The notes under the pieces: generated by a model
What the model saw: only the letters and a program-made list of their open reading frames with translations
Told to the model about the DNA's origin: nothing
The model's database searches: none
Made by a program: the position numbers and the translations under genes
DNA from: Candidatus Nitrosopumilus limneticus
GTDB taxonomy: Archaea > Thermoproteota > Nitrososphaeria > Nitrososphaerales > Nitrosopumilaceae
Assembly (NCBI GenBank): GCA_022117465.1
Contig: JAHCGZ010000003.1
Location: forward strand, 124,001 to 188,000
Length of the DNA: 64,000 nt
Direction: 5' to 3'
Part shown: in pieces, positions 57,564 through 58,570 of the stretch
Layout of the letters: every line of letters starts with the position of its first letter
How positions within the stretch are numbered: position 1 is the stretch's first letter

Positions 57564-57980
57564 TTACTTGATTGTTTCAGTAGCTTTTTGTTCTTGTGAT
57601 TTTTTCTTTAGATAATTTTCAACCCAATCTAAAGTAAGAACTCCAGATTCTGCCAAGTTTGTTAAAGAATTTGGAGAAGCTTCACCTGTTACTTTACCTT
57701 CCATTCTTCTTATTTGACGCCATTTTAGAGCCGTGTTTCCACTTTTTGAATTATAAATAATTCCAAGAACATCTCTTGCGTTCATAAATGTAATATCTCT
57801 AATTTTTTTTAAAGTTACTTTATCTGCAGCCTCAACGTAGATTGCACCCAAATTATCTTCTCTTTCTGCAAATACTTCTGAATCTTCTAAATAATTTCTT
57901 GGAGCATACGACTTACAAGTACTAGAAATGATAAATCTTCTAAAACTTTCTAGTGTTGCTGGAGTGCTAATTGTAACCAT
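57564..57980 (-). CDS. Conserved-looking protein of unknown function
   Basis: A 138-residue soluble protein with no recognisable domain. There is a single Cys near residue 22, and the C-terminal part ('ESGVLTLDWVENYLKKKSQEQK') is helical and basic. A middle stretch, 'AADKVTLKKIRDITFMNARDV', looks like a helix-turn-helix-sized segment, but no DNA-binding family fits clearly. It lies upstream of and in the same direction as Pelota (32-base gap), so a shared transcript is likely and a translation-related role is possible. The start is ATG at 57980. Confidence 0.6.
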   Translation of the reverse strand: MVTISTPATLESFRRFIISSTCKSYAPRNYLEDSEVFAEREDNLGAIYVEAADKVTLKKIRDITFMNARDVLGIIYNSKSGNTALKWRQIRRMEGKVTGEASPNSLTNLAESGVLTLDWVENYLKKKSQEQKATETIK

Positions 57981-58054
57981 TTTGTTTGACTAACTTTTAG
58001 CTATTTATCAAGCTTTTTGAAAGACTCAATAGGAATATCTCTAAAATTTGGCTT

Positions 58055-58113
58055 GCAGGCTGTGATGATTCTATCCCTCTGACTAATGATGAGGATCTTG
58101 AGAACTGAACCTG
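58055..58113 (+). ncRNA. C/D box sRNA (2'-O-methylation guide)
   Basis: The forward strand shows all four boxes in order with archaeal spacing: C box GTGATGA (58062-58068), D' CTGA (58079-58082), C' ATGATGA (58086-58092) and D CTGA (58105-58108). The two spacers are 10 bases (58069-58078) and 12 bases (58093-58104), the length of guide segments. The flanks CAGG (58056-58059) and CCTG (58110-58113) can pair into a terminal stem. It lies 38 bases upstream of the yjbQ start. The targets are not determined here; each would be the nucleotide pairing five bases upstream of D or D'. Confidence 0.8.
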
Positions 58114-58150
58114 TCTTATGATTTTAATGCTTGATCTATATTGTTATCAT

Positions 58151-58570
58151 ATGAAATTCTTGACTGAATATCTAACTTTTCAAGTGAAAAAAAGAAGAGA
58201 ATTTGTAAATATTACTTCTGATGTATCAAAATTAGTTTTAAAAAGTAAAATCAAGGAAGGTCTTTGTCTTGTTAATGCAATGCATATCACTGCCAGTGTT
58301 TTTATAAATGACGATGAATCTGGACTTCATCATGATTATGAAAAATGGTTAGAAGAATTAGCACCTCATGCACCAATTAATCAATACAAACACAATGATA
58401 CTGGAGAAGATAATGCAGATGCTCATCTAAAAAGACAAATTATGGGTAGAGAAGTTGTAGTTGCAATTACAAATGGTCAATTAGATTTTGGTCCATGGGA
58501 ACAAATTTTCTATGGAGAATTTGATGGTAAAAGATCAAAAAGAGTTTTAGTTAAAATTATTGGAGAATAA
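58151..58570 (+). CDS. YjbQ/UPF0047 family protein
   Basis: A 139-residue member of the YjbQ family, a small trimeric protein with a conserved His cluster; some members show weak thiamin-phosphate synthase-like activity. The conserved residues are visible: '[22 protein letters not shown]' region near residue 43, '[18 protein letters not shown]' near residue 88, and '[13 protein letters not shown]' near residue 115. ATG 58151 ('[19 protein letters not shown]') is the typical start; 11 codons upstream run into the sRNA flank and are unlikely to be translated. Confidence 0.88.

Follow-up and report, generated by a model that had tools for sequence, protein, structure and literature searches.

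A 61-nt stretch at positions 58055-58115 of the window, the 64,000 nucleotides of Candidatus Nitrosopumilus limneticus DNA analysed here, encodes on the + strand a box C/D sRNA whose most likely role, to judge from its sequence, is to guide methylation of a leucine tRNA at the first base of the anticodon. The identity as a box C/D sRNA is secure, since the box layout is unique in the window, the element is conserved across the order and its terminal stem covaries. If transcribed and assembled as predicted, the RNA would recruit L7Ae, Nop5 and fibrillarin by two kink-turn motifs (C/D and C'/D'), its D guide would bind the anticodon arm of tRNA-Leu(CAA) by base-pairing, and the wobble base C34, which lies opposite the fifth guide nucleotide counted back from box D, would receive a 2'-O-methyl group from fibrillarin; decoding of UUG/UUA might then be affected. 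We regard this explanation, a D guide for 2'-O-methylation of C34 in tRNA-Leu(CAA), as very probable. The sRNA is real, ordinary in kind and unusually well conserved; it adds a member to a known class of RNAs, in which guides to position 34 of tRNA-Leu have already been described or predicted in Pyrococcus.

An earlier note had described a C/D box guide RNA upstream of yjbQ with four boxes in order within about 47 bases, spacers of 10 and 12 bases and complementary flanks, and all of these elements were indeed read at the positions claimed. Box C (GTGATGA, 58062-58068), which is conserved among 29 aligned same-genus copies, is followed by the 10-nt D' guide TTCTATCCCT (58069-58078), box D' (CTGA, 58079-58082; CTGA or TTGA in relatives), box C' (ATGATGA, 58086-58092; conserved among relatives), the 12-nt D guide GGATCTTGAGAA (58093-58104) and box D (CTGA, 58105-58108; invariant in the alignment of relatives), all on the + strand, and 47 bases (58062-58108) are spanned from the start of box C to the end of box D. 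The flanks GCAGGC (58055-58060) and ACCTGT (58109-58114, GCCTGC in most relatives) are the two arms of a terminal stem on the same strand, a six-pair covarying helix that closes the C/D kink-turn and has one C-A mismatch beside the boxes, where nearly all relatives have C-G. The RTGATGA form of box C, the order of the boxes and guides of 8-14 nt are those of archaeal box C/D sRNAs.

With boxes of only 4 and 7 bases a chance or non-functional sequence had to be considered. The full layout (C, 8-14 nt, D', 1-12 nt, C', 8-14 nt, D) occurred once on both strands of the 64-kb window and in none of 100 windows simulated with a first-order Markov model, which bears out the low chance occurrence claimed before, and conservation in 291 of 400 genomes has already refuted this reading; its probability is negligible. 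The genome also encodes the protein machinery: genes for fibrillarin (E 1e-90, at C2 194480) and Nop5 (E 8e-68, at C2 193462) adjoin each other. Neither ARAGORN nor Rfam at gathering thresholds reported anything at the locus. When the locus by itself was scanned against Rfam with permissive settings, nearly all matches were to C/D box families on the + strand, with RF00095 snoPyro_CD as the top match (58059-58111, correct strand, E 0.00026 in this short-stretch search), but its score of 28.7 bits is below the gathering cut-off of 45 and its guides differ from those of the sRNA described here. No Rfam family covers the sRNA at its cut-off.

Of 59 other genomes of the genus, about 46 have the stretch at the DNA level, and several of those lacking it are incomplete assemblies. 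The 29 same-genus copies that align are near-invariant in the boxes and the D guide. A covariance model (R1) built from same-genus copies and run against 400 genomes of the order detected the sRNA gene in 291 genomes and 56 of 66 genera. Across the order 98.3% of the cells of the six-pair terminal helix are paired, all six pairs show changes on both sides with pairing kept, and double-change cells numbered 51 where 15.7 were expected, a value equalled by none of 500 shuffles. Conservation and terminal-stem covariation establish an RNA under selection. The core GATCTTGAG of the D guide is present in every listed copy across the order, that at locus L182 excepted.

The earlier note had proposed to look for complements of both spacers in the rRNAs and tRNAs of the same genome, and for the D guide an exact 10-bp match was found at the anticodon of tRNA-Leu(CAA). 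GGATCTTGAGAA forms 10 contiguous Watson-Crick pairs with bases 32-41 (C32-C41) of the mature tRNA, and base 58100, the fifth before box D, lies opposite C34, as expected for a position-34 guide that is complementary to an anticodon arm. The arm reads GGGACTCAAGATCCC after intron removal, with the layout GGGA-CTCAAGA-TCCC and the splice position taken from the anticodon stem. In the source genome the intron sits after the anticodon. It starts with ATC, the same as the downstream exon (L099, G000:C1:242653-242753), so that most of the guide target is identical in precursor and spliced tRNA. Since the unspliced tRNA still offers nine contiguous Watson-Crick pairs, from C32 to the third intron base, methylation would not be obliged to wait for splicing. 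The same ten pairs are found with tRNA-Leu(UAA), but with G-U at position 34, and U34 of this tRNA is a plausible second substrate.

Most relatives carry the D guide GGATCTTGAGTT, which makes 11 Watson-Crick pairs starting at A31, and this longer match fits their conserved core GATCTTGAGT. The two guide bases beside box D are AA in the source genome and at loci L005 and L007 and TT in relatives otherwise; therefore, the pair with A31 is lost in these three. A TT at tRNA bases 30-31 that would match the AA of the source guide was looked for, but the actual bases are GA. Shuffled guides reached an equally long run in about 1% of cases for the source guide and 0.3% for the relatives' guide, which taken alone is modest; separate support for the tRNA target comes from the placement of the predicted methyl on the wobble base, the order-wide invariance of the core and published precedent. 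A second family of the order (G066, L238) shows the same tRNA target. A 16S or 23S target of the D guide was rejected, the best candidate being 9 bp at 23S position 457 and only 7 with the relatives' guide. The target is likely to be a leucine tRNA rather than rRNA.

For the D' guide the search for complements gave no site in 16S, 23S, tRNA or SRP RNA that was better than shuffled controls, leaving this guide without a confident target. Since it forms 7 Watson-Crick pairs with the AGGGATA site of 23S rRNA in the peptidyl transferase centre (E. coli about 2444-2450) in the source genome and its core CTA[T/G]CCC is retained in many copies across much of the order, the sRNA might act chiefly on rRNA by this guide, with the tRNA match being secondary. 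However, most shuffled guides also give runs of at least 7, members of the order whose core reads CTAGCCC lack a match to the AGGGATA site, no aligned rRNA site outdoes shuffled cores, and conservation across the order is far stronger in the D guide than in the D' guide. We consider a chief role on rRNA improbable. A second 23S candidate, in H35, was rejected because pairing requires a bulge. In Pyrobaculum, tRNA-directed sRNAs are described in which one guide is for tRNA and the other has no target (PMC7994747).

The tRNA-Leu target predicted for the D guide has precedent in other archaea. C/D sRNAs of Pyrococcus are directed at the first base of the anticodon in tRNA-Leu(CAA) and tRNA-Leu(UAA) (PMC7994747), and methylation of C34 in tRNA-Leu(CAA) was predicted for P. 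furiosus, in a list of which some entries were undetected in the tRNAs analysed (PMC7668247). Target tRNA and predicted position of these Pyrococcus/Thermococcus sRNAs are the same as here (PMC7994747, PMC7668247). Thermococcus loci have the same D guide, with GATCTTGAGTG before CTGA, whereas the D' guide differs by lineage (CTCGGCAG in Thermococcus versus CTATCCCT in Nitrosopumilus limneticus). The sRNA described here differs from those of Pyrococcus/Thermococcus by its clear covarying terminal stem, and where Pyrococcus has separate sRNAs for the two leucine tRNAs, a single one may act on both here. Bacterial TrmL and eukaryotic Trm7/FTSJ1 likewise 2'-O-methylate leucine tRNAs at position 34; these are protein enzymes that work without a guide RNA, but at the same tRNA position as predicted here. 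A literature search found no description of the sRNA for this phylum, which is weak evidence as most subscription papers were outside its coverage. Ammonia-oxidising archaea gain a predicted RNA-guided modification at the leucine-tRNA anticodon, and the covariance model allows easy annotation of the sRNA family.

The spread of the C'-guide-D module was determined with the pattern TGATGA-(0-4)-GATCTTGAG-NN-CTGA on both strands of one genome per species (257 Gb). At least 119 stretches contain the module, against ~9 matches estimated to arise by chance over the entire collection, given 19 fixed bases, five gap lengths and the two strands of these 257 Gb. Among the matches listed, 78 of 80 are archaeal by title (Nitrososphaerota, Thermococci, Thermoplasmatota, Micrarchaeota, Diapherotrites, Heimdallarchaeota and Methanomassiliicoccales), and 74 of the 80 have a box-C-like motif upstream of the module, as judged by a loose pattern; D' guides vary between phyla among these listed matches and the flanks of the module differ, too. 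One contig titled Proteobacteria (L350) carries a Nitrosopumilus-type copy of the sRNA and is probably misbinned; the other bacterial-titled match (L295) is without box C and probably a chance match. Three Thermococcales loci were checked and had no Rfam match at threshold over the module copies. The D half could be a single ancient guide for leucine-tRNA wobble methylation, handed down from an early archaeal ancestor while the D' half was free to change, a tentative view to which we give somewhat less than an even chance. If true, few known C/D guides would match the D half in breadth of conservation, and the gene family would be one that Rfam lacks. With a single guide spread so widely, it becomes possible to test how old an individual C/D guide is.

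The sRNA lies in a protein-free gap, as had been claimed: the yjbQ start at 58118 in the list of open reading frames is too early, and the start conserved in the same-genus alignment is an ATG at 58151. Some 27 bases before it, in the 3' flank of the sRNA, is the conserved TATA-like ATTTTAA (58121-58127, + strand), the probable TATA box of yjbQ, with a spacing that would fit a leaderless start. On the other side a conserved block of ~37 nt, GCYATTTATCAAGCTTYTTGAAAGACTCAATAGGAAT (58003-58041), is near-invariant in the genus and kept in most same-family genera examined; it probably holds promoter elements of both the sRNA and the divergent gene, which overlap. This position between two genes and beside conserved promoter-like DNA would suit a cis-element, a leader or operator of yjbQ or of the divergent gene, whose likeness to a C/D RNA is incidental. 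Such an element is very unlikely: several relatives have the sRNA without a yjbQ match in the locus, the guide module recurs in other archaeal phyla with different flanks, the terminal-stem covariation points to RNA, and the canonical order and spacing of the boxes are kept. At the loci L172 and L178 the divergent gene has moved away and only the sRNA-proximal half of the upstream block is recognisable, possibly reflecting two overlapping promoters. Another reading, that the block is the tail of a minus-strand coding sequence, was rejected: no stop interrupts the frame over 58003-58041 and changes fall mostly in third or first positions, but a start codon is missing and a relative has an in-frame stop. 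The divergent gene (57564-57980, - strand) encodes a protein of 138 aa without a Pfam or NCBIfam match; it is located beside the sRNA in most loci of the family and also near it at loci in other families of the order.
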